Assembly: GCA_014879735.1 (NCBI GenBank)
Contig: JACSRN010000103.1
Coordinates: forward strand, 52,808-116,807
Length of the DNA: 64,000 bases
From: Paracoccaceae bacterium
GTDB lineage: Bacteria > Pseudomonadota > Alphaproteobacteria > Rhodobacterales > Rhodobacteraceae
Direction: 5' to 3'
Part shown: in pieces, positions 22,330-42,477 of the stretch
Numbering within the stretch: position 1 is the stretch's first letter
Layout: each line of letters starts with the position of its first letter
Program-made: the position numbers and the translations under genes
Notes under the pieces: generated by a model
What the model was told of the DNA's origin: nothing
Seen by the model: only the letters and a program-made list of their open reading frames with translations
Databases searched by the model: none

Positions 22330-22358
22330 GCGATTCTGCGCAAGACAGGAGGATGAGC

Positions 22359-24593: not shown

Positions 24594-24978
24594 CCATCGC
24601 GATACCGACATCGACCCCCGCCGCCGCGAATCGTCGATGCTGCCGGAAGATATCTCGCTGGATGCCCTGCGCGCCGGCGGGATCGAGCCGGAGGATGTGA
24701 CGATCCGCCGCCGCACGCTGGATGCGCAGGCCGAACGGGCCGAGGCAGAGGGCTTTCCCCAGCTTGCACGCAACTTCCGCCGCGCAGCGGAACTGACGGC
24801 GATCCCAGCGCCGGTGTTGCTTGATCTATACGAGAAGCTGCGCCCCAAGCGCGCGCGCTACGAAGAACTTCTGGCGCTGTCGCAAGAGGTTACTGCGCGG
24901 TTCGACGCGCCGGAAACCGGCGCCTATATCCGCGAGGCGGCCGAGGTTTACCGCACCAAGGGACTGGTTCGCGACTAG
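24586..24978 (+). CDS. pduE: Diol/glycerol dehydratase small subunit
   Basis: 130-residue gamma subunit completing the dehydratase. It shows the family pattern ISLDALRAGGIEPEDVTIRRRTLDAQAERAEAEGF followed by NFRRAAELTAIPAPVLLDLYEKLRP and EAAEVYRTKGLV. The ATG (24586) overlaps the end of the fused subunit gene in ATGCCTGA, so the two are translationally coupled. The ORF track starts at 24529 inside the previous gene, which I reject. It is shorter than enterobacterial PduE because the N-terminal extension used there for microcompartment targeting is absent, in line with the lack of shell genes. Confidence 0.92.
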   Translation: MPDHRDTDIDPRRRESSMLPEDISLDALRAGGIEPEDVTIRRRTLDAQAERAEAEGFPQLARNFRRAAELTAIPAPVLLDLYEKLRPKRARYEELLALSQEVTARFDAPETGAYIREAAEVYRTKGLVRD

Positions 24979-25083: not shown

Positions 25084-26748
25084 TCAGGCGGGCTGCATGG
25101 GGTCGCGCATGCCGGCGGCATCACGGGCCGCGATCGCGTCTTCGTAGCCGGCATCCGCATGGCGGATGACGCCGATGCCCGGGTCGACATGCAGGCATTT
25201 CGCCAGACGCCGAGCCGCCCCTTCGCTCCCATCGGCGACCAGCAGGTGGCCTGCAGAGATCGAACCGCCCATGCCGCTGCCGGCCCCCTGGTGAATGGTG
25301 ACGAGATCGGCGCCACAGGCGGCATTCAGCAGGGCGTTCAGCAAGGGCCAATCTGCCACCGCGTCGGTCCCGTCCTTCATGGCTTCGGTCTCGCGCGTCG
25401 GCTGCGCGACCGAGCCGGTGTCGAGGTGATCGCGCGAGATCACCAGCGGCGCGGCGACCTTGCCGCTGCGCACAAGATCGTTCAGCAGCGCGCCCAGGCG
25501 TTCGCGCTCGCCCATGCCCAGCCAGCAGGTCCGGGCGGGCAGACCCTGGATCGCTACCTTCTCTCTGGCCATGTCCATCCAGGTGCGCAGCAGCGGGTCG
25601 TCCGAGAATTCCGCCTGTACGGTCGCATCGGTCGTCCGCAGATCCGCCTCGTCGCCCGAAAGGCAGATCCAGCGCAGCGGCCCGCGCCCGCGCGAAAAGC
25701 TGGGCCGGATGAACATCGGGACGAAGCCGCCGATGTCGAAGGCATTGGCGACACCGTTTTCCCGGGCGTGGCCGCGCAGGTAGTTGCCATATTCGAAGAC
25801 GATCGCCCCGTCGCGCTGAAAGTCCAGCATCGCCCGGATATGCGCGCTCATGCTGTCAAGGCTGCGGCGGGTGTATTCGCCCGGATCCTTTTCCCGCAGC
25901 GTCGTGGCCTCGGACAATGCGAGCCCGGCAGGAACATAGCCGTTCAGCGGATCGTGGGCAGAGGTCTGGTCGGTCACGATTGCCGGCTTCAGGCCCATCG
26001 TCCGCAGCCGCGGCAGCAGTTCGGCGGCATTGCCGATCAGCGCGATGCCAAGCTGGCGACCGTTCTGCGCCGCCTCGCGCGCAAGGGCCATCGCCTGTGC
26101 CGGGTCATCGCAGATCAGATCGCAATAGCCGGTGTCGACCCGGCGTTCGGCCCGGCTGCGGTCGACCTCGACCGCGATGCAGACACCGCCGGCCATCTTG
26201 ACCGCCAGGGGCTGCGCCCCGCCCATGCCGCCCAAACCCGCCGTCAGCACGATCCGCCCGCGCAGATCGCCTTCGGGCATCTGCTTGCCGCAGGCCGCGA
26301 AGGTTTCATAGGTGCCCTGCAGGATACCCTGAGTGCCGATATAGGCCCAGGTGCCGGCCGTGTACTGGCCGTACATCATCAGGCCCTTGGCCTCGAGCAT
26401 CCGGTAGTGATCCCAGGTCGCCCATTTGCCGACAAGATTGGTATTGGCGCACAACACGCGGGAGCAATCCTCATGCGTGCGGAAAACCGCGACGGGCTTT
26501 CCGGACTGGATCACCATGGTCTCGTCGTTTTCCAGCGCCTTCAGCGTCTCGACGATGGCATGATAGCTTTCCCAGTTGCGCGCCGCCTTGCCCGAACCGC
26601 CGTAGATGATCAGTTCCTCGGGCTTCTCGCCGTTCGCGATCGTATTCTCCAGCATCCGCAACATACCTTCCTGCCGCCAGCCCTTGCAGCGCAGTTCGGT
26701 GCCGCGACCAATGGTGAAGTTGCGCAGGTTCGAGATCGGTTTCGTCAT
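25084..26748 (-). CDS. hutU: Urocanate hydratase (urocanase)
   Basis: NAD-cofactor enzyme turning urocanate into imidazolonepropionate. The 554-residue length is normal. It shows LRCKGWRQEGMLRMLENT, IIYGGSGKAARNWESYHAI, TAGLGGMGGAQPLAVKMAGG (NAD site), VTDQTSAHDPLNGY, and LPARTCWLGMG with Cys408 at the place of the reactive Cys of Pseudomonas urocanase. A late loop reads HQGAGSGMGG, where canonical enzymes have HHGGGVGMG, so it is somewhat divergent. ATG 26748 is used because AGGAG lies 6 bases before it. It is the third gene of iclR-arginase family-hutU. Confidence 0.88.
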   Translation of the reverse strand: MTKPISNLRNFTIGRGTELRCKGWRQEGMLRMLENTIANGEKPEELIIYGGSGKAARNWESYHAIVETLKALENDETMVIQSGKPVAVFRTHEDCSRVLCANTNLVGKWATWDHYRMLEAKGLMMYGQYTAGTWAYIGTQGILQGTYETFAACGKQMPEGDLRGRIVLTAGLGGMGGAQPLAVKMAGGVCIAVEVDRSRAERRVDTGYCDLICDDPAQAMALAREAAQNGRQLGIALIGNAAELLPRLRTMGLKPAIVTDQTSAHDPLNGYVPAGLALSEATTLREKDPGEYTRRSLDSMSAHIRAMLDFQRDGAIVFEYGNYLRGHARENGVANAFDIGGFVPMFIRPSFSRGRGPLRWICLSGDEADLRTTDATVQAEFSDDPLLRTWMDMAREKVAIQGLPARTCWLGMGERERLGALLNDLVRSGKVAAPLVISRDHLDTGSVAQPTRETEAMKDGTDAVADWPLLNALLNAACGADLVTIHQGAGSGMGGSISAGHLLVADGSEGAARRLAKCLHVDPGIGVIRHADAGYEDAIAARDAAGMRDPMQPA

Positions 26749-26845: not shown

Positions 26846-27790
26846 TCAGGGCCGGTTCATTTCCACGCCGATCCACGAGGCGATCAGCCGGGTGATCAGC
26901 AGGCTGGTGATGCCGTTCACATCCAGCCCGGGGAAATGTTCGGCCACGTTCATGCCGACGATTTCATGCTGGGCCGCAAGCCCCATGAAGATGTCCTGCG
27001 CATCGGGAAAGCTCAGCCCGCCGGGCAGAGGTGCGCTGGTGCCGGGGGCTTCGGACGGATCGATTCCGTCGACGTCAAAGGCGATGTAGACGCGCGAGCC
27101 GGGCGCCAGCAGGTCAAGCACGCTGCGCGCGCCCTTTGCCCGCACCTCGCGCGCGGTGATCACGGCATTGCCGGCCGCCAGCGTATCGGCCTGGTCGATG
27201 GCGCGTGCGCTGCCAAGGCCGCGACCGCCGACATGCAGGATGCGCTCGACCCAGGGCGCTTCGGAGGCGCGGCGCATCGGGCTGGAATAGCCCTCGCGGA
27301 TGCCGCCGACCTCGTCGCGAAAGTCGATATGGGCATCGAACTGGACCACTGTGACCGGCGCTTGCGCCCGAAATCCGCGGATCGCCATCCAGGTCGTGGA
27401 ATCGTCGCCGCCCAGAATGATGGGCCGGGCGCCGCGCTCCAGCACGCGCGCGACCACGGCGGAAACCCGTTCCGAATTGGCGTCCAGCGTTCCGGGCTCC
27501 GCCAGCACATCGCCAAGATCGCGCACCGGATGCGGCTTGCCTGCGAAGGGCAGGCCGCCCAGATCGATGTCGTAGCGGTCCTGCATGTCGCCATAGCGAT
27601 GCGAGCGCGCGCGCAGCGCTGCGGGGGCGTCCGAGGCGCCGCCGGCCACATTGCGCATGGTGTAGGGATAGCCGAACGGCGCGCCGATCACGGCATAGGG
27701 CGCGTCCAGGTCGTCAACCGAGGCGCAGGCCGGTGCGCCAAGAAAGCGCGGCATGCCCGGAGCAATCGGAATCGTGCGGGTATCGGTCAT
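26846..27790 (-). CDS. Arginase/agmatinase-family amidinohydrolase (formimidoylglutamase-like role)
   Basis: 314-residue ureohydrolase. Metal-site motifs are GGDDSTTW (usually GGDHS), FDAHIDFRD and FDVDGIDPSEAPG. One Mn-binding His is replaced by Asp; the other ligands are kept. In a hut setting the expected job is hydrolysis of N-formimidoyl-L-glutamate (HutG), but agmatinase or guanidinoacid hydrolase activity is possible. It starts 3 bases after the IclR stop and precedes hutU by 97 bases. The family is sure; the substrate is inferred from context. Confidence 0.85.
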   Translation of the reverse strand: MTDTRTIPIAPGMPRFLGAPACASVDDLDAPYAVIGAPFGYPYTMRNVAGGASDAPAALRARSHRYGDMQDRYDIDLGGLPFAGKPHPVRDLGDVLAEPGTLDANSERVSAVVARVLERGARPIILGGDDSTTWMAIRGFRAQAPVTVVQFDAHIDFRDEVGGIREGYSSPMRRASEAPWVERILHVGGRGLGSARAIDQADTLAAGNAVITAREVRAKGARSVLDLLAPGSRVYIAFDVDGIDPSEAPGTSAPLPGGLSFPDAQDIFMGLAAQHEIVGMNVAEHFPGLDVNGITSLLITRLIASWIGVEMNRP

Positions 27791-27793
27791 GGG

Positions 27794-28522
27794 TCATTCC
27801 ATCGTCGTTGTCGCCGGCAGCGACCGCTGCCGGCTGTTCAATTCCAGCGAAAGCCGCTGCGCCTCGGCGCAGATCATCTCGCCGATGCGGGCCGCCAGGG
27901 CTTCGGTTGCGCGGTAAAGCGGCATGGTGATGCTGATGCCGCCCACGATCTCGCCCTGGCTGTCGCGGACGGGTGCCGCGATCGCCGCAACATCCGGCTC
28001 GAGACTGCCCATCTTGACGGCATAGCCCCGCGCGTCGAGATCGCCCAGGATCGCCGCGCCGATTGCCGTTCCGCACAGCGGAACGGGCTGGCCCAGCCAG
28101 GTGTTGTGGCGGATCGGCTTCGGGCTTTCCTCCAGCCGGATGTAGATCGCCGTATCCGGCCCGTTGCGGACGGCAAGGTTCGCCGTCTCTCCGGTCTGGT
28201 CGCGCAGGGCCTGCAGCCGCGGGCCGGCAAGCTCGAAGAGCGAACTTCCACGCAGGCAGGCCAGCGCGATCTTCAGCATCCGCGGGCCGAAGACATAGGT
28301 CGAGGCGGGCGTCTTCCGCAGATAGCCGGCGCCGACAAGCGTACCGATCAGGCGCGAGGTCGTGCTGACGGCAAGCCCCGTTTCCTTGGCCAGTTCGCTC
28401 AACCCCCGCTCCGGATGCAGGATCGTGAAACACTCCAGCAGTTCAAGCGCACGCAGCGCCGAACGCACGGATCCCGGGTCGGTTTCTGCGGCGGCATCCC
28501 CGCGCTCGGCCTTGGCGTTCAT
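27794..28522 (-). CDS. IclR-family transcriptional regulator of the hut-like island
   Basis: 242-residue regulator with an N-terminal winged helix (SALRALELLECFTILHPERGLSELAKETGLAVSTTSRLIGTLVGAGYL) and a C-terminal IclR effector domain (LQALRDQTGETANLAVRNG, PLCGTAIGAAILGDL, VVGGISITMPL). The long ORF in the track is antisense to hutI upstream of ATG 28522. It heads the minus-strand operon and is divergent from hutI; two IclR-type inverted repeats fill the short shared control region. Autoregulation plus control of hutI is the simple reading. Confidence 0.9.
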   Translation of the reverse strand: MNAKAERGDAAAETDPGSVRSALRALELLECFTILHPERGLSELAKETGLAVSTTSRLIGTLVGAGYLRKTPASTYVFGPRMLKIALACLRGSSLFELAGPRLQALRDQTGETANLAVRNGPDTAIYIRLEESPKPIRHNTWLGQPVPLCGTAIGAAILGDLDARGYAVKMGSLEPDVAAIAAPVRDSQGEIVGGISITMPLYRATEALAARIGEMICAEAQRLSLELNSRQRSLPATTTME

Positions 28523-28609: not shown

Positions 28610-29944
28610 GTGCAGGACGCCGACATCCTCATCATCAACGCCTCCGAGCTGGTGACATGTGCCGGACCCGTGACCGGACGCATCGGCGACGATCTGGGAA
28701 AGCTGGACATCATCCGTGACGGCGCCCTTGCGATCACCGGCGGCCGCATCGTCGCGGTGGGTCCGACCGATGCCCTGCTGTCCGCCTGGCGCGGGAAAGA
28801 GACGATCGATGCCGGGCACCGGCTGGTCAGCCCCGGCTTCGTCGATGCGCATTCGCATCTTCTGTTCGGCGGAGACCGCTGCTGCGAATACGAGGGCAAG
28901 GTCAAGGGCAGGATCCTCGGCGCGAATCTGGAAACCGGAATCAATGCCACGATTCAGGCAACCCGCCGCGCCGACGACCGGACACTGGTCGAACAGGCCC
29001 TGTCCGATCTGGACGAGGCCCTGCTCTATGGCACCACCACGCTTGAAGCAAAGACCGGCTACGGCCTGTCGCGCGATCACGAATTGCGGCTGCTGCGGCT
29101 GACCAGCGGCCTTGAACACGAAGTCGACATCCTGCCCACCTTTCTGGGCGCGCATGTCCTGCCCGACGAATACCGCAACCGGCGTGACGAATATGTGCAG
29201 CTGGTGATCGACATGCTGCCGGACGTGCTGCCCTATACCCGGTCCTGCGACGTGGCCTGCGATCCGGCCTGTTTCACCGCCGCGGAATGCCTGCGCATCG
29301 GCCGCCACGCGCGCGAACTTGGCATGACGCTGCGCGTTCATGCCGACCAGACCGGCGATGCCGGCGGCGCAGCCGTCGCTGCTGCGCTTGGCGCCGCCTC
29401 GGCCGATCACCTCGACCAATCCTCGGCCGAGGGTTTGCGGGCGATGGCGGCGGCGGGGACCGTTGGCATCTTCTTCCCCGGCGTCACCTTCCACATGCTG
29501 GAAATGGTGCCCCCGCTGACCGAAGACGGCATTGGCGCGGCGGAAAAGCCCTATATGCCGCAATCGGTGCGGCGCGCGCTGCAGGCCGGCGTCGTCTGCG
29601 CCATCTCGGCCGATTTCAACCCGGGCAGCTGCCCGTCGATCTCGATGCAGATGATGATGCAGATGGCCATGCGCCTGTTCCGCCTGTCCTATGCCGAGGT
29701 GTGGAACATGAGCACGCTGAACCCTGCCGTCTCGCTGGGTCTTGCGGCCGACCGTGGCTCCCTTGAGCCGGGCAAGCGCGCCGACGTGCTGATCTGGAAC
29801 GAGATCGACCATCGCCGTGCAGTCAACCGTTTCGGCAGCAACCGGGTCGATACGGTGATGAAGTCCGGCCGCATCGTCGTGCGGGGCCAAAACCTGATCC
29901 GGTCCACCGCGGCGCCGGCAAAATCCGCAAGTCCAGCGGGCTGA
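28610..29944 (+). CDS. hutI: Imidazolonepropionase-like amidohydrolase
   Basis: Metal-dependent hydrolase opening the ring of imidazolone-5-propionate to N-formimidoylglutamate. The 444 residues include the HxH metal motif VDAHSHLLFGGDR, the TTTLEAKTGYGL segment seen in HutI, LRVHADQTGDAGG (His), SADHLDQ (His) and SADFNPGSCPS (Asp). The ORF track begins at 26783 through antisense sequence. GTG 28610 is preceded by AAGGAGG, better than the in-frame ATG 28568, which lies inside the operator. It faces the iclR operon and is followed by the branched-chain-type importer. Confidence 0.88.
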   Translation: MQDADILIINASELVTCAGPVTGRIGDDLGKLDIIRDGALAITGGRIVAVGPTDALLSAWRGKETIDAGHRLVSPGFVDAHSHLLFGGDRCCEYEGKVKGRILGANLETGINATIQATRRADDRTLVEQALSDLDEALLYGTTTLEAKTGYGLSRDHELRLLRLTSGLEHEVDILPTFLGAHVLPDEYRNRRDEYVQLVIDMLPDVLPYTRSCDVACDPACFTAAECLRIGRHARELGMTLRVHADQTGDAGGAAVAAALGAASADHLDQSSAEGLRAMAAAGTVGIFFPGVTFHMLEMVPPLTEDGIGAAEKPYMPQSVRRALQAGVVCAISADFNPGSCPSISMQMMMQMAMRLFRLSYAEVWNMSTLNPAVSLGLAADRGSLEPGKRADVLIWNEIDHRRAVNRFGSNRVDTVMKSGRIVVRGQNLIRSTAAPAKSASPAG

Positions 29945-29980: not shown

Positions 29981-31144
29981 ATGACAAAAGCAATTTCCCG
30001 GCGGGCGGTTGTCGCCCTTGCCGCCGCGGTTGGTACGTTTCTATCGATGGGACCAGCCGCCGCGCAGGACACAATCCGCATCTGATTCCACGCGCCCCTG
30101 ACCGGGCCGGCGGCCGGCGACGGCGAAAGCGCCAAGCTCGGCGCCGAACTCGCGATCGAGCAGATCAATGCAGCCGGCGGGCTGCTTGGCAAGCAGGTCG
30201 AACTGATCGAACTTGACGATCAGGCCAAGACCGAGCAGGCGCTGCCCATCGCCAACCGCCTGGCGGGCGAGGGTGTCGCGCTTGTGGTCTCGGGCAGCTA
30301 TTCCGGCCCGACGCGCGCCGCGGCCGGCGTGTTCCAGGAAAACGGCATCCCCTATATCTCGGCCTATGGCGTTCACCCCGACATCACCCGGGCGGGCGAC
30401 TATGTGTTCAGCACCTCGTTCGTGGGCGAAGTCCAGGGTCGCGCGGGCGCCAAGCTCGTGGGCGAGAACGTTGGCGCCAAGCGGGTGTCCATCATCTCGA
30501 TCAACAACGACTTCGGCCAGTCGCTGGTTGCCGGCTTCAAGGAGGCTGCCGCCCAGTTCGGCATCGAGATCGTGAACGAGTACTACTATGGCATGGCCGA
30601 CCGCCAGTTCGGCTCGATCGTGGCGGGCATCCGCCGTGACGCACCCGATGCGATCTATGCCACCGGCTATTTCTTCACCGGCGGCCCACTGGTCAGCCAG
30701 CTTCGCAGCGCGGGGGTAACGGCAACCATCGTCGGAACCGAAGGCTTCGACAGCCAGAACTTCATCGACATTGCCAAGCAGGCCGCCGAGGGCGTGATCA
30801 TCACCACCTCCCTGGACCGCGGCACCGAAAACCCGGTCATGCGCGCCTTCATCGATGATTTCGAGAAGAAGGCAGGTTTCCCGGCCGATATGGTGGCGGC
30901 AACCACCCATACCGCGGTGCTGGTTGCGGCCGATGCGATCACCCGGGCGGGCAGCGTCGACCATGCCGCGATCCGTGACGCGCTGGCGGCCACGAAGGAC
31001 CTGCAGGTTTCGACCGGGGTCCTGACCTTCAACAGCCTGGGCGAAATCTATCACGAGATCGGTGCGCAGATCGTGAAGGATGGCGCGTTCACCCATTACG
31101 CGACCATCGACGATCCCGTGCTGCTCGCGCCGCCCACCGAGTGA
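29981..31144 (+). pseudogene. Branched-chain amino acid-type ABC binding protein, in-frame TGA at codon 35
   Basis: From a strong GAGGAGG site and ATG 29981 the frame reads a signal peptide ending in GPAAAQDTIRI, then TGA at 30083-30085, then continues in the same frame as FHAPLTGPAAGDGESAKLGA. Family members usually have a Gly where the stop lies, so one G-to-T change (GGA to TGA) explains it. The rest is a normal LivJ/LivK-type type I fold (GVALVVSGSYSGPTRAAAG, GTEGFDSQNFIDIAKQAAEG) to 31144, 387 codons counting the stop. No other frame shift is seen. It may be a very recent mutation or a sequencing error; without it the following importer lacks its binding protein. Confidence 0.85.
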
Positions 31145-31171
31145 ACCTGACAACGGCGAAGAGGTCTGGAC

Positions 31172-32038
31172 ATGTTTCATCTAGAGCTGCTGACCGTCGG
31201 CCTGATCCAGGGCGCAATGTATGCCATGATGGCGCTGGGGCTGACGCTGATCTACGGACTTCTTCGCATCCTGCACATCGCGCATGCCGCCCTGTTCACG
31301 CTGGGCGCCTATGCGGGGGTGCTGGCCGCGAATGCGGGCCTTGGACTCTTGCCCGCCGCAATCGTGGCGGTGGCCATCGGCGGGATCGCCGGGCCACTGG
31401 TCTATGTCGCGATCTACCGGCCGCTGCTGGACAAGCCGCCCTATGTCGCGCTGATCGCGTCGATCGGGTTGCTGATTGCGCTGGAAGACGGGTTCCGGCT
31501 GGTGTTCGGGCCCTATGGTCTGTCCTTCGACAACAACCCCTGGTTCATCACGGGCTGGATGATCGGCGGCATCTATCTGAACGCGGTGCAGGCGGCCATC
31601 GCGGTGACGGCGATCCTGTCCATCGCCGCCTTCACCTGGTTCGCGCGCCGGACCCGCGCCGGCGTCGCCTGGCGGGCCACAGTGACGGATCCGGCGATGG
31701 CGCGTACCTTCGGGGTCGAGCCCGACCGCGTCCGGATAATGAGCTTTGCCATCGCCTCGATGCTGGCGGCCGTCGCGGGTGTGCTGATCGGCTTGCTGAA
31801 CAACCTGGTCGAGCCGACCATGGGGTCGATCATCGCCTACAAGGGCCTGGCCATCATCGTGCTGGGCGGGCTGGGCAACGTCCCCGGCACGCTGGTCGCG
31901 GCCTTGTTGCTGGGGGTGGCCGAAAGTTTCGGCCAGACCTATCTGGATCAGGTTCTCGACCGCGATGCCATCGCCTTTCTGGTCCTGATCGTCGTCCTGA
32001 TGGTGCGGCCGCAGGGCCTGTTCGGAAAGGCCGGTTGA
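31172..32038 (+). CDS. livH: Branched-chain-type ABC transporter permease LivH
   Basis: 288-residue inner-membrane permease with about eight hydrophobic helices. It has the LivH-type opening LLTVGLIQGAMYAMMALGLTLIYGLLRILHIAHAA, and a late KGLAIIVLGGLGNVPGTLVAALLLGVAE, the family coupling loop. It follows the broken binding-protein gene by 27 bases and precedes livM by one base. The importer probably serves the hut-like enzymes, so an imidazole compound rather than leucine is a fair guess. Confidence 0.92.
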   Translation: MFHLELLTVGLIQGAMYAMMALGLTLIYGLLRILHIAHAALFTLGAYAGVLAANAGLGLLPAAIVAVAIGGIAGPLVYVAIYRPLLDKPPYVALIASIGLLIALEDGFRLVFGPYGLSFDNNPWFITGWMIGGIYLNAVQAAIAVTAILSIAAFTWFARRTRAGVAWRATVTDPAMARTFGVEPDRVRIMSFAIASMLAAVAGVLIGLLNNLVEPTMGSIIAYKGLAIIVLGGLGNVPGTLVAALLLGVAESFGQTYLDQVLDRDAIAFLVLIVVLMVRPQGLFGKAG

Positions 32039-32039
32039 C

Positions 32040-32873
32040 ATGGACGCCTATATTCTCAGCCTGACGATCTTCGTCGCGATCAATGTGGCGCTGGCGCTGA
32101 GCCTGAACCTGATCAGCGGCTTCTGCGGCCAGATCAGCCTGGGTCACGCCGCCTTCTATGGCACCGGGGCCTATGTCTCAGCCATTCTCTCGGTCTCGGG
32201 GGTGCCTTTCGCGGTGTCCTTCGTGGCCGGTGGCATCGCCGCCGGCATCCTGGGCTTCCTGGTCGGCCTTGCCTCGCTGCGGGTTCGCGAGGATTTCCTG
32301 GCGATCACGACCATGGGGGTAAACTTCCTTTTCGTCGGCTTCGTGCGCAAGCAGGGCTGGCTGGGCGGCGAGATCGGCATCACCGCGATCCCGAAGCCGA
32401 TGTCAGATGCCGGAATGGCCACTCTGGCCTGGATTCTGGTCGCGGCCACCGCGTTTCTGCTGGTGGCGATCCGGCGAAGCTGGCTGGGAACGGGGTTCAC
32501 GATGATTGCCCAGGACGAACAGGCGGCGACAAGCCTCGGCCTCAACGTCGGGCGCTTCAAGCTGGCGGCCTTCGTCATGGGAACCGCCGCGGCGGGGATG
32601 GCCGGCGTCATCTATGCGCATGTCGCACAGCTGATTGTGCCGGATGCCTTTGGCTTCGTCGTGTCGATCTCGATCCTGGCGATGGTCGTGGTGGGCGGGA
32701 TCGGTTCGATCTTCGGGGTCATCCTGGGTGCGGTCCTGCTGACGCTGCTGCCGGAACTGGCGCGGTTTGCCAATGACTACAAGCTTCTGATCTTTGGCGC
32801 GCTGATGGTGGCAGTCATGCTGATCAGCCCGGGCGGGCTGGCCGGCGCGTTCCAGAGGTTGAGGGCACGCTGA
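32040..32873 (+). CDS. livM: Branched-chain-type ABC transporter permease LivM
   Basis: 277-residue permease partner of LivH. It opens with NVALALSLNLISGFCGQISLGHAAFYGTGAYVSA, the LivM signature, and ends with the loop MVVVGGIGSIFGVILGAVLLTLLPE. It starts one base after livH and overlaps livG by one base (TGATG). Shorter than E. coli LivM because the N-terminal extension is absent, as is usual in alphaproteobacterial paralogues. Confidence 0.92.
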   Translation: MDAYILSLTIFVAINVALALSLNLISGFCGQISLGHAAFYGTGAYVSAILSVSGVPFAVSFVAGGIAAGILGFLVGLASLRVREDFLAITTMGVNFLFVGFVRKQGWLGGEIGITAIPKPMSDAGMATLAWILVAATAFLLVAIRRSWLGTGFTMIAQDEQAATSLGLNVGRFKLAAFVMGTAAAGMAGVIYAHVAQLIVPDAFGFVVSISILAMVVVGGIGSIFGVILGAVLLTLLPELARFANDYKLLIFGALMVAVMLISPGGLAGAFQRLRAR

Positions 32874-33622
32874 TGGATCTGCTGAAGACCACATCCCTTT
32901 CGCGCAGTTTCGGCGGCGTCGCCGCGGTCAGGAACGTGACCCTGGCCGTCAAGGACCGCGAACTCCTGTCGGTGATCGGCCCGAACGGCGCCGGCAAGAC
33001 CACGCTGCTGAAACTGATCACCGGCCAGATACCGCCAGATACCGGCAGGATCGAATTGTTCGGCCGCGATGTCACGGCGGTGCCGCAATATGCGCGGGCG
33101 CAGATGGGCATCGCGCTGACCCACCAGATCGTCCGCCCGTTCCGCGGGATGACGCTGGGCGAGAATGTGACCGCCGCCATGGGGCACGGGCATTTCAACC
33201 AGCCCGTCGCCTCGCTGTTTCATCGCCCCGGCGCCGCCGACACGGCGCGGGCGCGCGAGCTTCTCGATCTGGTCGGCATCGGCCATGCCGCCGGCCGCAG
33301 CGCAAGCGAGGTACCGCTGGGCTATCTGAAACGGATGCAGATCGCGCGCGTGCTGGCGACCGATCCAAAGCTGCTGCTGCTGGACGAACCGCTGGCCGGC
33401 CTGAACTATTCCGAGGCGGGCCAGATCGCGGATCTGATCGTGCGGCTGAACGAGGGCGGGCGCACCGTCGTGCTGATCGAGCACAATCTGGGCGAGGTCC
33501 TGCGGATCTCGCACCGGGTCGCCGTGCTGGACAATGGTGCCCTGCTGGCCGAAGGGCTGCCGGCCGAGGTGATCGCCCGGCCCGACGTGCGTGCGGCCTA
33601 TCTGGGCAAGGAGGCCGGCTGA
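32873..33622 (+). CDS. livG: Branched-chain-type ABC transporter ATPase LivG
   Basis: 249-residue ATPase: Walker A GPNGAGKTTLLKLITG, Q-loop LTHQIVRPFRGMTLGENV, Walker B LLLLDEPLAGLN, H-loop IEHNLGEVLRIS. The signature region reads VPLGYLKRMQIARVL, which keeps the LivG-like GxxK/R pattern (LSYGQQRRLEIARAL in typical members) but lacks the SGGQ core. That is a noticeable divergence in this subunit. The gene overlaps livM and livF by one base each. Confidence 0.9.
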   Translation: MDLLKTTSLSRSFGGVAAVRNVTLAVKDRELLSVIGPNGAGKTTLLKLITGQIPPDTGRIELFGRDVTAVPQYARAQMGIALTHQIVRPFRGMTLGENVTAAMGHGHFNQPVASLFHRPGAADTARARELLDLVGIGHAAGRSASEVPLGYLKRMQIARVLATDPKLLLLDEPLAGLNYSEAGQIADLIVRLNEGGRTVVLIEHNLGEVLRISHRVAVLDNGALLAEGLPAEVIARPDVRAAYLGKEAG

Positions 33623-34344
33623 TGCTGGATGTCACCAACATGAGTTGCGGCTATGGCGCCGTTCTGGCGGTCGACGACGTGACATTCCAGGTTCCCGACG
33701 GGCAGATGGTTGCGCTTCTGGGTCCGAACGGGGCGGGAAAGACCTCGACCGTGATGGCGATTGCCGGGCATGTCGAGATGTTCTCCGGCAGCATCGCGCT
33801 GGGGGGCAGGGATCTGGCCGGCACCGGGCCGGCGGGCCGCACCCGTGCCGGGATCGGCCTGGTGCCGGAAGGCCGGCGGATCTTCGGGGATCTGACCGTG
33901 GCCGAGAACCTTCTGGTCGGCAGCTATACCCGCAGCCGGGCCGAGGCGCGCGATGCCGAGGCAGATGCCCTGGCGCTGTTCCCCCGCCTGCGCGAGCGCT
34001 ACGACCAGCGGGCCGGTTCGCTGTCGGGCGGCGAGCAGCAGATGCTGGCCATGGCACGGGCGCTGGTCTCGCGCCCCTCGACGCTGCTGGTGGACGAGCT
34101 TTCGCTGGGGTTGATGCCGGCTGTGGTGCATCAGTGCTTCGAGGCGCTCGCGGCACTGAAGGAGCGCGGCGTCAGTTGCCTCGTGGTCGAGCAGAACACC
34201 GAGGTCGCGCTGCGCTATGCCGACTGGGTCTGCGTCCTTGCCGCCTCGAAGCTGATCCATTCCGGGCCTGCCGCCGAGGTGCGCGGCAATCCGGGTTTTG
34301 TCGAGACCCTGCTCGGCCTTTCGGTCGACAGGGCGGGAGCATAG
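33622..34344 (+). CDS. livF: Branched-chain-type ABC transporter ATPase LivF
   Basis: 240-residue ATPase with Walker A GPNGAGKTSTVMAIAG, the LivF-type GLVPEGRRIFGDLTVAENL, signature LSGGEQQMLAMARAL, Walker B TLLVDELSLGLMP and a Glu/Gln H-loop (VVEQNTEVAL) as usual in LivF. It overlaps livG by one base, and its stop lies 4 bases before the second hutU-like gene, which ties that enzyme to the importer. Confidence 0.92.
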   Translation: MLDVTNMSCGYGAVLAVDDVTFQVPDGQMVALLGPNGAGKTSTVMAIAGHVEMFSGSIALGGRDLAGTGPAGRTRAGIGLVPEGRRIFGDLTVAENLLVGSYTRSRAEARDAEADALALFPRLRERYDQRAGSLSGGEQQMLAMARALVSRPSTLLVDELSLGLMPAVVHQCFEALAALKERGVSCLVVEQNTEVALRYADWVCVLAASKLIHSGPAAEVRGNPGFVETLLGLSVDRAGA

Positions 34345-34348
34345 GACA

Positions 34349-35983
34349 ATGACACGCGACCTGCCCGGGCTACACACCGGCAATATCCTGCGCTGCAAGG
34401 GCTGGCGCCAGGAGGTGATCCTGCGACTTCTGGAAAACAACCTGGCGAATGCCGAAAGCCCGGCCGATCTGGTCATCTACATGTCATGGGCCAAGGCAGC
34501 CCGCGACTGGGAAAGCTTTGACCGGATCGTGGCGGCGCTGAAGGCGCTGGAAGAGGACCAGACGCTGGTCATGCAATCCGGCCGGCCGGTCGGGCTGTTT
34601 CCCACCCAGGGCACCACGCCGCTGGTGGTGATGGCCAACGGCAATGTTGTCGGCGCCTGGAACGGCGAAGCGGAATTCCGCGCGCTGGAACGCAAGGGGC
34701 TGACGATCATGCCCGGGATGACGGCGGCGGCCTGGCAGTACATCGGCTCGCAGGGGATTCTGCAGGGAACCTACCAGACCTTTGCCGCGGCCGGGCAACA
34801 GCATTTCGGCGGATCGCTGGCGGGCCGGCTGATCGTGACCGGCGGCTGTGGCGGGATGAGCGGGGCGCAGCCGCTTGCCGGCCAGTTGGCCGGCGCAGCC
34901 ACGCTGGTTGTCGAGGTCGACGAGGCGCGGATCGACCGCCGCATCGCGACCGGCTATTGCCAGCGCAAAACCCGTGACCTGGACGAGGCGCTGGCCTGGT
35001 GCCGTCAGGCACAGGCGGCAGGCGAAGGGCTTTCGGTCGGGCTGGTCGGAAATGTCGCAACGGTGCTGGACACGCTGATCGAACGCGGAATCACGCCCGA
35101 TATCGTGACTGACCAGACCATCGCCGACCCGGTCAACGGCTATGTCCCCGAAGGCATGACCACGGCTGCAGCGGCAGAACTGCGCCGTTCCGATCCCGCA
35201 GCGCTGAAGGCCAGGGCCGACCGGACGCTGATGCGCCATGTTCGCGCGATGCTGATGCTGAAGGCCCGCGGTGCGCTGGTGTTCGAATACGGCAACAACC
35301 TGCGCAAGTTTGCCTTCGAGGCCGGGCTGCAGGATGCCTTCGGCTTCCGCTCCTTTGTCGAACTGTTCATCCGCCCGCTGTTCTGCGAGGGGATCGGGCC
35401 GTTCCGCTGGATCGCGGCCTCGGGCGATCCCGAGGATATCCGCAGGATCGACGATCTGATCCTGTCGCTCTTTCCGCCCGATCACCGCATCGCCGGCTGG
35501 ATCAGAACGGCGCGCGACCATGTGCAGTTCACCGGCCTGCCGGCCCGGATCGGATGGCTGGGCCTGGGCGAGCGCAAGCGACTGGCCCTTGCCGTCAACG
35601 ATCTGGTGGCCGAAGGCGCCTTGCGCGGCCCCATCGCCTTCACCCGCGACCATCTCGATTCCGGTTCCGCCACCCTGCCCCATCGCGAGACCGAGAACAT
35701 GCTGGACGGGTCGGATGCGATTTCCGACTGGCCAATCCTGAATGCGCTGCTGAATTGCGCCTCGGGCGCCGATCTGGTGGCAGTTCATGCCCTGGGGAAC
35801 TGGGGACAGTCGGCCGGCGTGACGACGATCGCCACCGGCAGCGCCGATGCTGCCGCCCGCCTGGCCCGGGTCATGGACAACGATCCGGGCATCGGTGTCT
35901 TGCGGCATGCGGATGCGGGCTATCCGACCGCGCAGCAGGCGGCCCGGCAGGCCGGGATCGGCATTGCCGAGCAATTGTCCTGA
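34349..35983 (+). CDS. Divergent urocanase-family protein (HutU paralogue)
   Basis: 544-residue urocanase-fold protein, co-transcribed with the Liv-type importer. It aligns end to end with HutU: LRCKGWRQEVILRLLENN, GSQGILQGTYQTFAAAGQQHF, TGGCGGMSGAQPLAGQLAGA, VTDQTIADPVNGYVPEG, FEYGNNLRKFA, RDHLDSGSATLPHRETENM. Three key places differ. YGG after the first strand is YMS. The position of the reactive Cys is Gly402 (LPARIGWLGLG). The late HHGGGVGMG loop is replaced by VHALGNWGQSAG. NAD binding may persist, but ordinary urocanase activity is doubtful. It may hydrate a modified urocanate, or have another role. ATG 34349 chosen over the upstream frame inside livF. Confidence 0.85.
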   Translation: MTRDLPGLHTGNILRCKGWRQEVILRLLENNLANAESPADLVIYMSWAKAARDWESFDRIVAALKALEEDQTLVMQSGRPVGLFPTQGTTPLVVMANGNVVGAWNGEAEFRALERKGLTIMPGMTAAAWQYIGSQGILQGTYQTFAAAGQQHFGGSLAGRLIVTGGCGGMSGAQPLAGQLAGAATLVVEVDEARIDRRIATGYCQRKTRDLDEALAWCRQAQAAGEGLSVGLVGNVATVLDTLIERGITPDIVTDQTIADPVNGYVPEGMTTAAAAELRRSDPAALKARADRTLMRHVRAMLMLKARGALVFEYGNNLRKFAFEAGLQDAFGFRSFVELFIRPLFCEGIGPFRWIAASGDPEDIRRIDDLILSLFPPDHRIAGWIRTARDHVQFTGLPARIGWLGLGERKRLALAVNDLVAEGALRGPIAFTRDHLDSGSATLPHRETENMLDGSDAISDWPILNALLNCASGADLVAVHALGNWGQSAGVTTIATGSADAAARLARVMDNDPGIGVLRHADAGYPTAQQAARQAGIGIAEQLS

Positions 35984-36019: not shown

Positions 36020-36877
36020 TCAGTCCTTGTAGCCGATGTAGTTATAGCCGAACTTGAACGATGTGACCGGGGGTTCGACCACCGCGCCATCCACCGTCAC
36101 CTGATCGACGAGTTCGGTCGCAAAGCACAAAAGACCGCGGATGCGGGCGGATTCATGGACCGGATCCGCATAATACCAGATCGCATCCTTCACCAGGTCT
36201 TCGCCGACACGCAGATGATAATACTGTGCCTCGCCCTTGTAGGGGCACCGGCTGCGGGTTTCACTGGCGATCAGGCAGGACATGTCGACATCGGCCTGCG
36301 GCAGGTAGTGGCGCGTGGGCAGGCCGGTCTCGAACAGCAGGACCGGGCGCGCACTGTCGGCAACCGTGACGCCGCGATGGCGCACCGTGACGCGGCGGGT
36401 CGAGGGCAGGCAGTCGACGCGGCGGAACGGGTCGCGGACATGGACGAAGACCTCTTCCTCCTCCTCGAACCAGCGATCGACCTCGTGCCAGTAAAAGCTG
36501 CCATAGGCCGACAGATCGGGTGAGCCGTCGATGGGCTGGTCATAATGCCAGAGGATGTCGTCATAGGCGCCGCCGGCACCTTTCAGCGAATAATGCCGCG
36601 CCTTGCCCTTGTAGGGCGATTCGGTGACGCGCTTGCCCGGCTCGAACAGATCCATCCGGATATCCCGGAGCGGGATGTAGTAGATCGGGATGTGGTCGCT
36701 TTCGAACAGGATCAGCGCCTCGACCGTATCGGCGAGAATCTGGCCGTTCGCCATGGTGCGGACGCGCTTCGGGCAAGGCAGGGTAAAGACCACATAGCCC
36801 GGCTCGAACGGATACTGGGTGATCCGGTCCAGCGGCGGCAGGAACGGACCGCGGGTTCGCAGATGGGGATGTCGCAT
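36020..36877 (-). CDS. Tandem DUF427 protein
   Basis: 285 residues made of two DUF427 repeats. Repeat 1 (about 35-130) has VRTMANGQILADTVEALILFES and SPYKGKARHYSL; repeat 2 (about 155-275) has VTVRHRGVTVADSARPVLLFETG and CPYKGEAQYYHL. The repeated YKGxAxYY with a nearby W/Y and acidic residues is the family hallmark. The biochemical function of DUF427 is not established to my knowledge. It begins 3 bases after the fused ATPase of the peptide ABC operon, so it is probably the operon's last gene and could act on the imported compound. Confidence 0.85.
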   Translation of the reverse strand: MRHPHLRTRGPFLPPLDRITQYPFEPGYVVFTLPCPKRVRTMANGQILADTVEALILFESDHIPIYYIPLRDIRMDLFEPGKRVTESPYKGKARHYSLKGAGGAYDDILWHYDQPIDGSPDLSAYGSFYWHEVDRWFEEEEEVFVHVRDPFRRVDCLPSTRRVTVRHRGVTVADSARPVLLFETGLPTRHYLPQADVDMSCLIASETRSRCPYKGEAQYYHLRVGEDLVKDAIWYYADPVHESARIRGLLCFATELVDQVTVDGAVVEPPVTSFKFGYNYIGYKD

Positions 36878-36880
36878 CGG

Positions 36881-38901
<2,021 letters not shown>

Positions 38902-38905
<4 letters not shown>

Positions 38906-39771
38906 CGTGCGGTCTCCCGGAAGCCATCGGCCAGAAGGTTGCAGGCCACGACGACCGAAGTCACGGCCGCCGCCGGCAAAAGCGCGATATGGGGGTAGAT
39001 CGTCATCAGGTTCACGCCCTCGACCACCATGCCGCCCCAGTCAGGCGTGGGTGGCGGCAGGCCAAGGCCGAGAAATCCCAGCGTGCCGACCAGGATGACG
39101 GCATAGCCGGTCCGCAGGCACAGATCGACGATCAGCGGCGTACCGACATTGGGCAGGATTTCGGCCGCCATGATATAGATCGGGGATTCGCCGGCGGCGC
39201 GGGCGGCCAGCACATATTCCAGCCCCTTGACCGCAAGAACCTGGCCCCGCATCAGCCGCGCCACCCCCGGCGCATAGGTCAGCGTCACCGCGATGACGAT
39301 GTTCCACAGCGAGGGCCCGAAGGTGGTGATCAGGATGATGTAGAGGACAAGCGCCGGAAAGGCGAGCATCACGTCGCCGGCGCGGGCCAGGATCGTGTCG
39401 GTCCAACCGCCATACCAGCCGCCGGCCAGCCCGGCGATGGCACCGACCAGAAAGGCCGAGAAGACCGACAGCGGAATGACGAGGAAGGTCGTCCTGGCGC
39501 CAAAGATGATGCGCGACAGCAGATCCCGGCCGATGGCATCGGTTCCAAGCCAATGGGCCGCCGAGGGCGAGGGGTCGGCGCTGGCCGCAAAGTCGATGGC
39601 GGTGGGATCATAGGGCGCGATCCAGGGCGCGCCAATCGCCACGACCAGCCAGAAGACCAGGATCGCCAGCCCGACGGTCGCGCTGCGCGACCGCAACAGG
39701 CGCGACCCCCGCAGCCGTACCAGGAAGCCGGCCCGCGCCGGCGTGGTCGTCCTGTCCGCTCCGGCCGTCAT
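38902..39771 (-). CDS. Dipeptide/oligopeptide ABC transporter permease (DppC type)
   Basis: 289-residue permease with an N-terminal helix (ATVGLAILVFWLVVAIGAPWIAPY), the DppC/OppC motif HWLGTDAIGRDLLSRIIFGARTT, and the EAA loop EYVLAARAAGESPIYIMAAEILPN. The ORF track extends to 40191 through the neighbouring gene; ATG 39771 overlaps the DppB stop in ATGA, so I use it. Confidence 0.92.
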
Positions 39772-40781
39772 GCGACGCGGATCCGCGGGTCGAGAAGGAC
39801 ATAGGCCAGGTCGCCAAGGAACTGGGTCGTCACCGCCACGCTGAGCGCGATCAGCGTCAGTGCCTGGATCAGGTAGATATCGCCGAACAATGCGGCCTCC
39901 AGCATCAGCCGGCCGATGCCGGGATAGGCGAAGATCGCCTCGACCACGACAACGCCGGTCAGGATCCAGTTGATCTGCAGGAGGATGACGGTGACGGGCG
40001 CGATCATCGCATTGCGCAGCACATGCAGCATGGCCACCCGCATCGGCGCCAGGCCCTTCAGCCGGGCGGTGCGGACGAAAGGCTGCGCCAGGGTATCGAC
40101 CACGGAACTGCGGACGATGCGTGTGACATAGGCCGAAGAGGCGATGACCAGGACCGCCACCGGCAGCACCAGTTGCGAACCGACCGACCATCGGTCGCCC
40201 GGATCAAGCGGGCTGGTTCCCGGCAGCCAGCCCAGCGATGCCGCAAAGACGAAGATCAGAAGAACCGCAACCACGAATTCCGGCAGCGAGGTCAGGCTGA
40301 CCGTCGTGACCGAGATGATGCGGTCCAGCGCGCTGCCCTCGGTCATTCCCGCCAATACGCCCAGAACCAGCGAGATTGGCACCGTCAGACCAATGGCCCA
40401 GACAGTCAGCGTAACGGTATGGCCGAAGCGGTCGGCCAGGACGTCGACAATCGGCCGCCCCTGCATCAGCGAAAAGCCGAAATTGCCGAAGTATTGCGCA
40501 CCCCGCGGATCGCTGAGGCCAAGCCCGGTGGCCGGCCCGCCAAGTTCGTTCGGCACCAGCCCGACAAGCATGCCGAGCCAGCGCAGGTATCGGGTGAAAA
40601 GCGGATCGTCCAGGCCCAGCCGGTCCGACAGCGAACGGACCTGGCTTTCCAGCGCATAGGGGCCGAGAATCTTGGACGCGACATTGCCCGGAGAAAACTC
40701 GGTCACGGCGAAAAGCAGGAACGATGCGATCAGCAGGATGAAGGCGAACTGGCCCAGCCGGTTCAGGACGATCCGCGCCAT
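39768..40781 (-). CDS. Dipeptide/oligopeptide ABC transporter permease (DppB type)
   Basis: 337-residue permease that begins RIVLNRLGQFAFILLIASFLLFAVTEFSPGN, the usual DppB start, and carries the EAA loop FVRTARLKGLAPMRVAMLHVLRNA. Residues before MARIV in the ORF track are not conserved. The start lies one base after the binding-protein stop, so the operon is tightly coupled. Confidence 0.92.
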   Translation of the reverse strand: MARIVLNRLGQFAFILLIASFLLFAVTEFSPGNVASKILGPYALESQVRSLSDRLGLDDPLFTRYLRWLGMLVGLVPNELGGPATGLGLSDPRGAQYFGNFGFSLMQGRPIVDVLADRFGHTVTLTVWAIGLTVPISLVLGVLAGMTEGSALDRIISVTTVSLTSLPEFVVAVLLIFVFAASLGWLPGTSPLDPGDRWSVGSQLVLPVAVLVIASSAYVTRIVRSSVVDTLAQPFVRTARLKGLAPMRVAMLHVLRNAMIAPVTVILLQINWILTGVVVVEAIFAYPGIGRLMLEAALFGDIYLIQALTLIALSVAVTTQFLGDLAYVLLDPRIRVA

Positions 40782-40782
40782 G

Positions 40783-42477
40783 TCAGGCCCCAAGCGCCAG
40801 CTTGTTGGCGAAAAGGGCATAGGTCGGGTGCATCTCGAACCCCATCACACGGGAATCGTAGAAGGTCAGCAGCTTGCGCCAGTAGGTCTGGACAATGGGC
40901 CCGTCTTCCTGCAGCAGTGCCTCGATCTCGGCCATCTTGCCGCGCCGGACCTCGGGGTCGGGCATCGCCTCGGCCTCGGTCAGCAGGCGGTCGAACTCGG
41001 GGTTGGCATAGCCGCTTTCGTTCCAGGCCCCGCCGCTGCGATAGGCAAGGCCAAGGTTGATCACCGCCAGCGGCCGGTGCGCCCAGACGGTGGAGCCGAA
41101 GGGAACCGTCGTCCAGACATCCCAGTACTGCGCATTGGGCATGACGTTGATGTTGCAGGTGACACCGGCCTCCTTCAGCATTTCCTGAATGGCCGTCGCG
41201 TTGCGCAGGTGGTGGGCGGGATCTTTCTGGATCACCAGTTCCACCTCCAGCCCGTCGCCATGGCCAGCCTCGGCCAGCAACGCCCGGGCAGCCCCGATAT
41301 CCTGCTTCCATTCCGGCAGCTTGGCATATTCCGGGTGAATGGGTGCGACATGGTGGTGTTCGGCCGGCGTTGCGAAGGGGCCGAATGTCACGGCACTGGC
41401 CTTCACCGGATCGATGGCCAGCCGGAAGGCCTTGCGCACACGCGGGTCGTCGAAGGGTTTCTGCTTGACGTTCATGCGGCTGATCGCAGTGTCGGCGGTG
41501 GTCACGTCATGCAGCGTCAGATGCTTTTGCTGCTCCAGCATCGACGAAAATTCCGGCTGCACCTGGAAGGCGCCATGAACCTGTCCCGAGATCAGGGCGT
41601 TCAGGATCGCCTGATCGCCGCCGCCGAGATCGATGAACTCCACCCGGTCGAGATAGGGACCCTCGCCCCAGTAATCCGAGACCGCCTCGATCACAGCGCG
41701 GCGGCCGGGTTCGATCTCGACCAGCGTGAAGGCGCCGGTGCCGTTCGACCCCACGTCGAAGGTGCCGCCCTGATCGGGGTCCAGCATCACCGCCTGATAG
41801 TGGTTCAGATGTTCGGGAATGGCCAGTTGCGGCTCTTTCAGGTTCAGCCGAACGGTCTGGTCGTCCACCCGCTCGATGGCATCGGGCGACCAGAGTTCGT
41901 GGCCGATGACCGGCTGGCCGTTCTCGTCGGTCTGGCCGGTATCGACCTCGTTCAACATGTAGCCCTTCATCAGCCCCAGCATGGACGAGCCCACGTCGTC
42001 CGACAGCAGCCGTGTCAGGTTCCAGATCACATCATCGACGGTGAAATCCCGGCCGGAATGCCACTTCACCCCAGGTCGCAGGCGCAGCGTCCAGGTCTTC
42101 AGGTCATCCGACGGTTGCCAGCTTTCCAGAAGATGCGGCCGGGTGACGTTGTCCGAGCCGATCACCGTCAGGTATTCGACGACCTGCGAATAGATCCAGG
42201 GATGGGCGGTGGTGTTCGCGATGGCTGGGGATTTCACATCGTATACGGTGGTCTCCAGCCGCAGGGTCCCGCCCTTGGGCTTTGCCTCCGGCGCGGTCTC
42301 CTGCGCGAAGGCCGGGGTCACGATGCCGTCGATCGCCCCCGCCATCCCATAGGCCGCCGCCGCCGAGGCGCCGAGGAGCGTCGCCGTGCGCAGGAACTCG
42401 CGCCGGTTGATGCGGCCGCCGCGATACTGGGTCAGAAGCTGCGGCATGTAGCTGTGTTGATCGTCCGTCGGCATCAT
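40783..42477 (-). CDS. Peptide-type ABC binding protein (family 5), Tat signal
   Basis: 564-residue family 5 binding protein. The N-terminus carries a twin-arginine signal (NRREFLRTATLLG, then a hydrophobic stretch to AFAQE), so export in folded form is likely. The mature part has the family landmarks GVKWHSGRDFTVDDVIWNLTRL, SNGTGAFTLVEIEPGRRAVIEA and INVMPNAQYWDVWT. A GGAGG precedes the two alternative ATGs 42477/42474. First gene of the minus-strand operon, divergent from the LysR-family gene. Ligand unknown. Confidence 0.92.
   Translation of the reverse strand: MMPTDDQHSYMPQLLTQYRGGRINRREFLRTATLLGASAAAAYGMAGAIDGIVTPAFAQETAPEAKPKGGTLRLETTVYDVKSPAIANTTAHPWIYSQVVEYLTVIGSDNVTRPHLLESWQPSDDLKTWTLRLRPGVKWHSGRDFTVDDVIWNLTRLLSDDVGSSMLGLMKGYMLNEVDTGQTDENGQPVIGHELWSPDAIERVDDQTVRLNLKEPQLAIPEHLNHYQAVMLDPDQGGTFDVGSNGTGAFTLVEIEPGRRAVIEAVSDYWGEGPYLDRVEFIDLGGGDQAILNALISGQVHGAFQVQPEFSSMLEQQKHLTLHDVTTADTAISRMNVKQKPFDDPRVRKAFRLAIDPVKASAVTFGPFATPAEHHHVAPIHPEYAKLPEWKQDIGAARALLAEAGHGDGLEVELVIQKDPAHHLRNATAIQEMLKEAGVTCNINVMPNAQYWDVWTTVPFGSTVWAHRPLAVINLGLAYRSGGAWNESGYANPEFDRLLTEAEAMPDPEVRRGKMAEIEALLQEDGPIVQTYWRKLLTFYDSRVMGFEMHPTYALFANKLALGA

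Follow-up and report, generated by a model that had tools for sequence, protein, structure and literature searches.

The question raised by this locus is whether a urocanase homologue without the reactive cysteine and the glycine loop of its family is a damaged enzyme or one that serves another substrate. In urocanases, tightly bound NAD+ acts on the imidazole ring as the electrophile, and the enzyme adds water 1,4. The gene lies in a 64,000-nucleotide stretch of a Paracoccaceae bacterium genome (the window, whose numbering is used throughout), and a sequence-only reading had argued for a changed substrate and not decay. The gene and its altered segments are:

34349..35983, plus strand: S-methyl thiourocanate hydratase-type urocanase homologue, 544 aa (NF058531; PDB 8q9v by sequence and fold; clade with 8Q9V)
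34478..34486, plus strand: YMS, residues 44-46, replacing YGG (position and alignment)
35540..35572, plus strand: codons of LPARIGWLGLG, approximately residues 398-408, with Gly402 replacing urocanase Cys410 (position and alignments)
35783..35818, plus strand: VHALGNWGQSAG, residues 479-490, shortened counterpart of the HHGGGVGMG loop (position and alignment)

The reading frame runs from the ATG at 34349 to the stop at 35983 with no internal stops, and starts 4 bases downstream of the end of livF (34344). The translation bears out the three replacements described in the sequence-only reading, namely Gly402 for Cys in LPARIGWLGLG (residue 401 is the first of IGWLGLG), YMS for YGG and VHALGNWGQSAG, from residue 479, for the HHGGGVGMG loop. 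The alignments also agree that the NAD site is kept, the urocanase NAD segment being conserved as TGGCGGMSGAQPLA from residue 164. That list of changes was real in every item and overlooked one more, a one-residue deletion that takes out the histidine of TDQTSAHDP to leave TDQTIA-DP. In the alignment, the Cys410 column holds glycine in all rows of the hydratase clade (13/13) and cysteine in the HutU rows, with a single alanine in a congener, and the change from Cys to Gly is therefore not chance. The exception (locus L018, genome G008 of the same genus) is an otherwise canonical HutU with YGG and HHGGGVGMG, and because of its alanine Cys410 is not universal even in HutU.

The odd active site is the normal signature of a described family, that of the S-methyl thiourocanate hydratases, and is no damage. 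In NCBIfam (2026), S-methyl thiourocanate hydratase, thiourocanate hydratase and HutU each have a model of their own, the first two being NF058531 and NF058530. The window hydratase passes NF058531 (960.5, cut-off 880), fails NF058530 by 217 bits (713.3, cut-off 930) and scores 691 on TIGR01228 (HutU, cut-off 375), which is a broad model. As controls, 8Q9V scored 964 on NF058531, 7NED 1013 on NF058530, and the HutU of contig C88 in the window's genome 934 on the HutU model. NF058531 also takes in the second of the two subclades set out below and so does not separate the possible substrates. The best PDB sequence matches were 8q9v and 8q9u (60% identity to 8Q9V), and the same two entries headed a fold search with the model of the window hydratase (TM 0.95). 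Their titles name the Variovorax sp. RA8 enzyme S-methylthiourocanate hydratase, with NAD+ (and an R450A variant), and its function is taken here from these titles. The structure model, proposed earlier as a check, thus settles the fold but not the pocket loops, as pLDDT falls below 50 at residues 43-47, 122-134, 436-460 and 483-485; the model is poor precisely in the altered loops and the pocket is not resolvable from it.

Compared with known enzymes (8Q9V and 7NED were aligned as sequences taken from HMMER output, 528-530 residues), the window hydratase most resembles the Variovorax protein. Both have the same fold and NAD site, glycine for cysteine, YM for YG, the histidine deletion after TDQ and the short loop, and both carry YM[NS]-AKAARDW, PGMTAA-WQYIGSQG and LPARIGWLG. 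They differ in subclade, in the residues that follow YM (SW in the window hydratase, NA in 8Q9V), in the short loop (NWGQ versus DKSA) and in that no S-methyl thiohydantoin desulfurase was found in the window's genome. The methionine of YM was considered as a mark of an S-methyl substrate and dropped, since the nearest relative of 8Q9V (G544_1, below) has YTG. HutU (TIGR01228; PDB 1UWK, 2FKN, 1X87) shares the fold, the NAD site, RDHLDSGS and approximately 48-54% identity overall, whereas the window hydratase has no Cys410, YGG, histidine of TSAHDP or HHGGGVGMG loop and lies outside the HutU clade.

In a 51-row tree, the hydratase clade was recovered with support of 100/99; it was separate from HutU and neighboured the thiourocanate hydratases. 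It comprised the window hydratase, 8Q9V, the proteins of Agrobacterium, Bradyrhizobium, Chelativorans, Lichenihabitans and Paracoccus seriniphilus, and three copies from genome G110. When the tree was enlarged by one more G110 copy and by a pair from G544, a genome of the window's own family, the clade (n = 13) held at 99/98. In subclade A, 8Q9V and G544_1 pair (100/98) alongside the G110 copies, and subclade B contains the window hydratase, its four close orthologues, the P. seriniphilus protein and G544_2 (94/96). The occurrence of both subclades side by side in one G544 cluster suggests two substrates. The four orthologues, from Agrobacterium, Bradyrhizobium, Chelativorans and Lichenihabitans, are 77-82% identical to the window hydratase, the Agrobacterium enzyme being the closest (82%), and dN/dS against them is 0.09-0.19 (Nei-Gojobori; approximate, as dS is 1.0-1.7). 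The window hydratase is under purifying selection, contrary to the relaxed selection that would have spoken for decay. With a distinct clade fixed for glycine, as the phylogeny was expected to show if function had shifted, and a solved S-methylthiourocanate hydratase that carries the same changes, the earlier preference for a changed substrate is upheld. The replacement of the cysteine, real as it is, is less remarkable than it seemed, since thiourocanate hydratases have Ala or Gly at this position and the otherwise canonical HutU of G008 has Ala. The puzzle of the lost cysteine and glycine loop is thereby removed, both being a family trait of hydratases of sulfur-substituted urocanates.

The family is rare. 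The NF058531 cut-off was passed in 2 of 385 genomes of the class, members were found in 2 of 397 genomes of the taxonomic family, and the matches listed for 13 congeners included no hydratase orthologue. Close orthologues sit on plasmids, including those of Agrobacterium and Lichenihabitans, and public plasmid records still label them 'urocanate hydratase'. Such a rare, patchy and plasmid-borne distribution fits horizontal spread. The description of the gene as a HutU paralogue accordingly stands for the urocanase fold and not for a private duplicate of HutU. The family is already described, and what is new here is a member with an unusual gene neighbourhood:

29981..34344, plus strand: livKHMGF, branched-chain-type ABC transporter directly upstream of the hydratase (49-57% identity to transporters of the Agrobacterium and Bradyrhizobium hydratase clusters)
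28610..29944, plus strand: HutI2, divergent imidazolonepropionase-like amidohydrolase, GTG start (TIGR01224 328, cut-off 298)
27794..28522, minus strand: IclR-type regulator (PF01614/PF09339)
26846..27790, minus strand: HutG2, arginase/agmatinase-family hydrolase (hutG 104.5, under the cut-off of 229)
25084..26748, minus strand: HutU2, second divergent urocanase, with Cys408 and the loop HQGAGSGMGGSISAGH (profile score, translation, alignment and tree)

The hydratase is the end of the HutI2-livKHMGF run, which is divergent from IclR-HutG2-HutU2. The regulator is approximately 40% identical to the IclR proteins of the Agrobacterium, Bradyrhizobium and Lichenihabitans clusters, and the closest solved relatives of HutG2 are agmatinase and guanidinobutyrase, with other amidinohydrolases. 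The livK gene (29981-31144, plus strand) has an in-frame TGA at 30083-30085, just past the signal peptide region, and reads IRI*FHAPLTG where a Bradyrhizobium relative has KVGFHAPLTG; this is either a nonsense mutation or an assembly error.

The company kept by the orthologues is more explicit, being that of ergothioneine-type operons. On Agrobacterium plasmid pAt15955, livKHMGF and IclR are clustered with an S-methyl thiohydantoin desulfurase (537.9, cut-off 450), a GST-like gene, ErtE (576, cut-off 520), the hydratase (975.8, cut-off 880), an S/N-oxide reductase, ErtD (782.8, cut-off 600), a glycine-betaine-type ABC transporter and a HAL-like lyase. Variants of this gene set occur in Bradyrhizobium, Chelativorans and Lichenihabitans, and in all four genera an S-methyl-type desulfurase adjoins the hydratase. 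In G544 the cluster is complete: two MIO-less lyases, hydratase 1, a desulfurase (551.6), a GST, hydratase 2, ErtD and ErtE stand in a row. Ergothionase is stated to lack the MIO cofactor (PMC13405746). As a single cluster with one hydratase of each subclade, the G544 locus (L084) is a natural test of whether the subclades differ in substrate. In G110, a hydratase gene is grouped with a desulfurase-like gene and a tandem array of five lyases. The 2.7-Mb genome of G110 holds four hydratase-type genes (L077, L078, L079), two of them in tandem in L079, and the five tandem lyase genes, which lie beside one of the four at L078, are MIO-less.

Elsewhere in the window's genome, contig C114 carries ErtD (777.7, cut-off 600) and ErtE (576.5, cut-off 520) next to a lyase that lacks the MIO motif, has SGHGGPGE at that site and, as far as its sequence goes, fits an MIO-less ergothionase. 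A search for an S-methyl thiohydantoin desulfurase found none in the window's genome (201 contigs, 98.9% complete; an assembly gap is possible), and the same Pfam search was positive in G544 and G110. The C114 cluster was considered as the missing half of the hydratase pathway and is only suggestive, its link to the hydratase being uncertain because Rhizobium jaguaris has the counterpart set (lyase-ErtD-ErtE-UbiD) without a nearby hydratase. The MIO-less lyase loci compared are L008 (C114, 4672-12118), L090 and L089; the C114 locus includes a UbiX/UbiD decarboxylase pair in addition to ErtD and ErtE, and R. tropici has the lyase with UbiD. This suggests that the lyase-UbiD loci belong to another pathway, one that includes a decarboxylation.

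Taken as a class, C2-sulfur-substituted urocanates are the substrates of the window enzyme, an NAD+-dependent hydratase of urocanase fold, with a probability of roughly 0.78. That the substrate is specifically S-methyl thiourocanate is close to an even bet; it is favoured because of the NF058531 model, 8Q9V and the S-methyl desulfurases beside the 77-82% orthologues. An ergothionase-type lyase would remove trimethylamine from an S-modified ergothioneine to yield a C2-sulfur urocanate, and the window hydratase is predicted to add water across it, most likely across S-methyl thiourocanate. The 2-substituted imidazolone propionate so formed would then be converted to glutamate by a putative downstream route in the window's genome. 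The YGG, Cys-strand and glycine-loop segments are replaced together across the whole clade, and this joint replacement is best explained, from the alignments, by a pocket remodelled to take a bulky group at C2, for which the altered segments would make room; the exact substituent is likewise a prediction. Several points count against this explanation: the subclade split, the missing desulfurase, the uncertain tie to the C114 cluster, the livK stop and the poor model in the altered loops. What 8Q9V hydrates may not be what the window enzyme hydrates, because the two are in different subclades and G544 has a member of each side by side.

Within the C2-sulfur class, the window enzyme could instead be a urocanate-2-sulfonate hydratase of an ergothioneine sulfonate pathway. 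This alternative is tentative, and it is a live rival because such a pathway has been reported in vitro, a report that is cited for Agrobacterium radiobacter in PMC13405746, and because the subclades differ: the closest relative of the window hydratase is an Agrobacterium enzyme, and the subclade that it shares with the window hydratase occurs beside that of 8Q9V within the one G544 cluster. Once the sulfonate is hydrated, sulfite could leave with no need of a desulfurase, and the hydantoin propionate so formed would be available to ErtD and ErtE, so that the absence of the S-methyl desulfurase from the window's genome would be no gap; Agrobacterium, Bradyrhizobium, Chelativorans and Lichenihabitans nevertheless retain an S-methyl-type desulfurase beside the hydratase. 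Assignment to the thiourocanate hydratases of the plain ergothioneine pathway is improbable. These form the sister clade in the tree, and 7NED (NF058530, ErtB-type) shares with the window hydratase the urocanase fold, glycine at the cysteine position, WQYIGSQG and LPARIGW; the profile score, however, is far below the cut-off, 7NED has YAA, VFDNGN, HPNIMTE and a full-length Gly/Tyr loop of its own, and the clade motifs VFDNGN, HPNIMTE and GGGGYxGYMTSAG are missing from the window hydratase. A decaying or inactive HutU copy, to which the missing cysteine and the nonsense codon in livK might point, is very improbable for a full-length protein with a kept NAD site, a low dN/dS and changes that are fixed clade-wide.

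The desulfurase-less context of the window hydratase has one parallel. On plasmid p420573 of P. seriniphilus, an arginase-like gene and an IclR gene are divergent from a HutI-like gene and a hydratase (63% identity to the window hydratase; NF058531 945.9, cut-off 880), with a lyase nearby, and a search of the plasmid for a desulfurase found none. Both genomes thus have [arginase-like - IclR] in divergent orientation to [HutI-like - hydratase]. The best plasmid match of HutI2 is the P. seriniphilus gene beside the hydratase (46.9%; only six records reach that threshold) and that of HutG2 is the arginase-like gene of the same cluster (48%). The SYEEI segment of ordinary HutI is missing from HutI2 and from its P. 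seriniphilus counterpart. It is doubtful, though worth stating, that in these two genomes the hydratase feeds an unreported branch without thiohydantoin desulfurase, via HutI2 and then HutG2. Ring opening of the 2-substituted imidazolone by the divergent HutI would yield a glutamate of isothiourea type, the amidino group of which could then be cleaved by the agmatinase-like HutG2. Such a route is conceivable, and since no further HutI2 orthologue was found in 362 genomes of the class, it rests on two genomes. It would offer a possible second route to glutamate.

The neighbouring HutU2 had served as the comparison, as a HutU with an intact cysteine motif. Its Cys408 in LPARTCWLG is indeed intact, but it is not the housekeeping urocanase and has a loop of its own; the housekeeping HutU, with canonical YGG, Cys and HHGGGVGMG, is on contig C88 with HutH, HutI and HutF. 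HutU2 is an orphan variant with a basal position in the HutU clade, its closest relatives are at most 56% identical in 397 family genomes and at most 58% on plasmids, and it is possibly for yet another urocanate analogue. Convergent with HutU2, a fused gene for the large and medium subunits of a B12-type diol/glycerol dehydratase (22353-24593, plus strand, 746 aa) is followed by a separate small-subunit gene (24589-24978, plus strand).

On the other side of the hydratase, genes for a DUF427 protein and for an ABC transporter of dipeptide type occupy 36020-42477 (minus strand). The transporter may be the importer, since a binding protein and permeases related to it (34-38%) are encoded in the G544 cluster, where an apparent DUF427 ORF also stands beside the lyases. 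A further divergent lineage is represented in a Spirochaetaceae MAG (L046, 805-2484) by a urocanase homologue that keeps the cysteine, has RDNLD and the loop SSAGGAAGTGVSCG, and adjoins HutH, HutI and a polyamine-type transporter.
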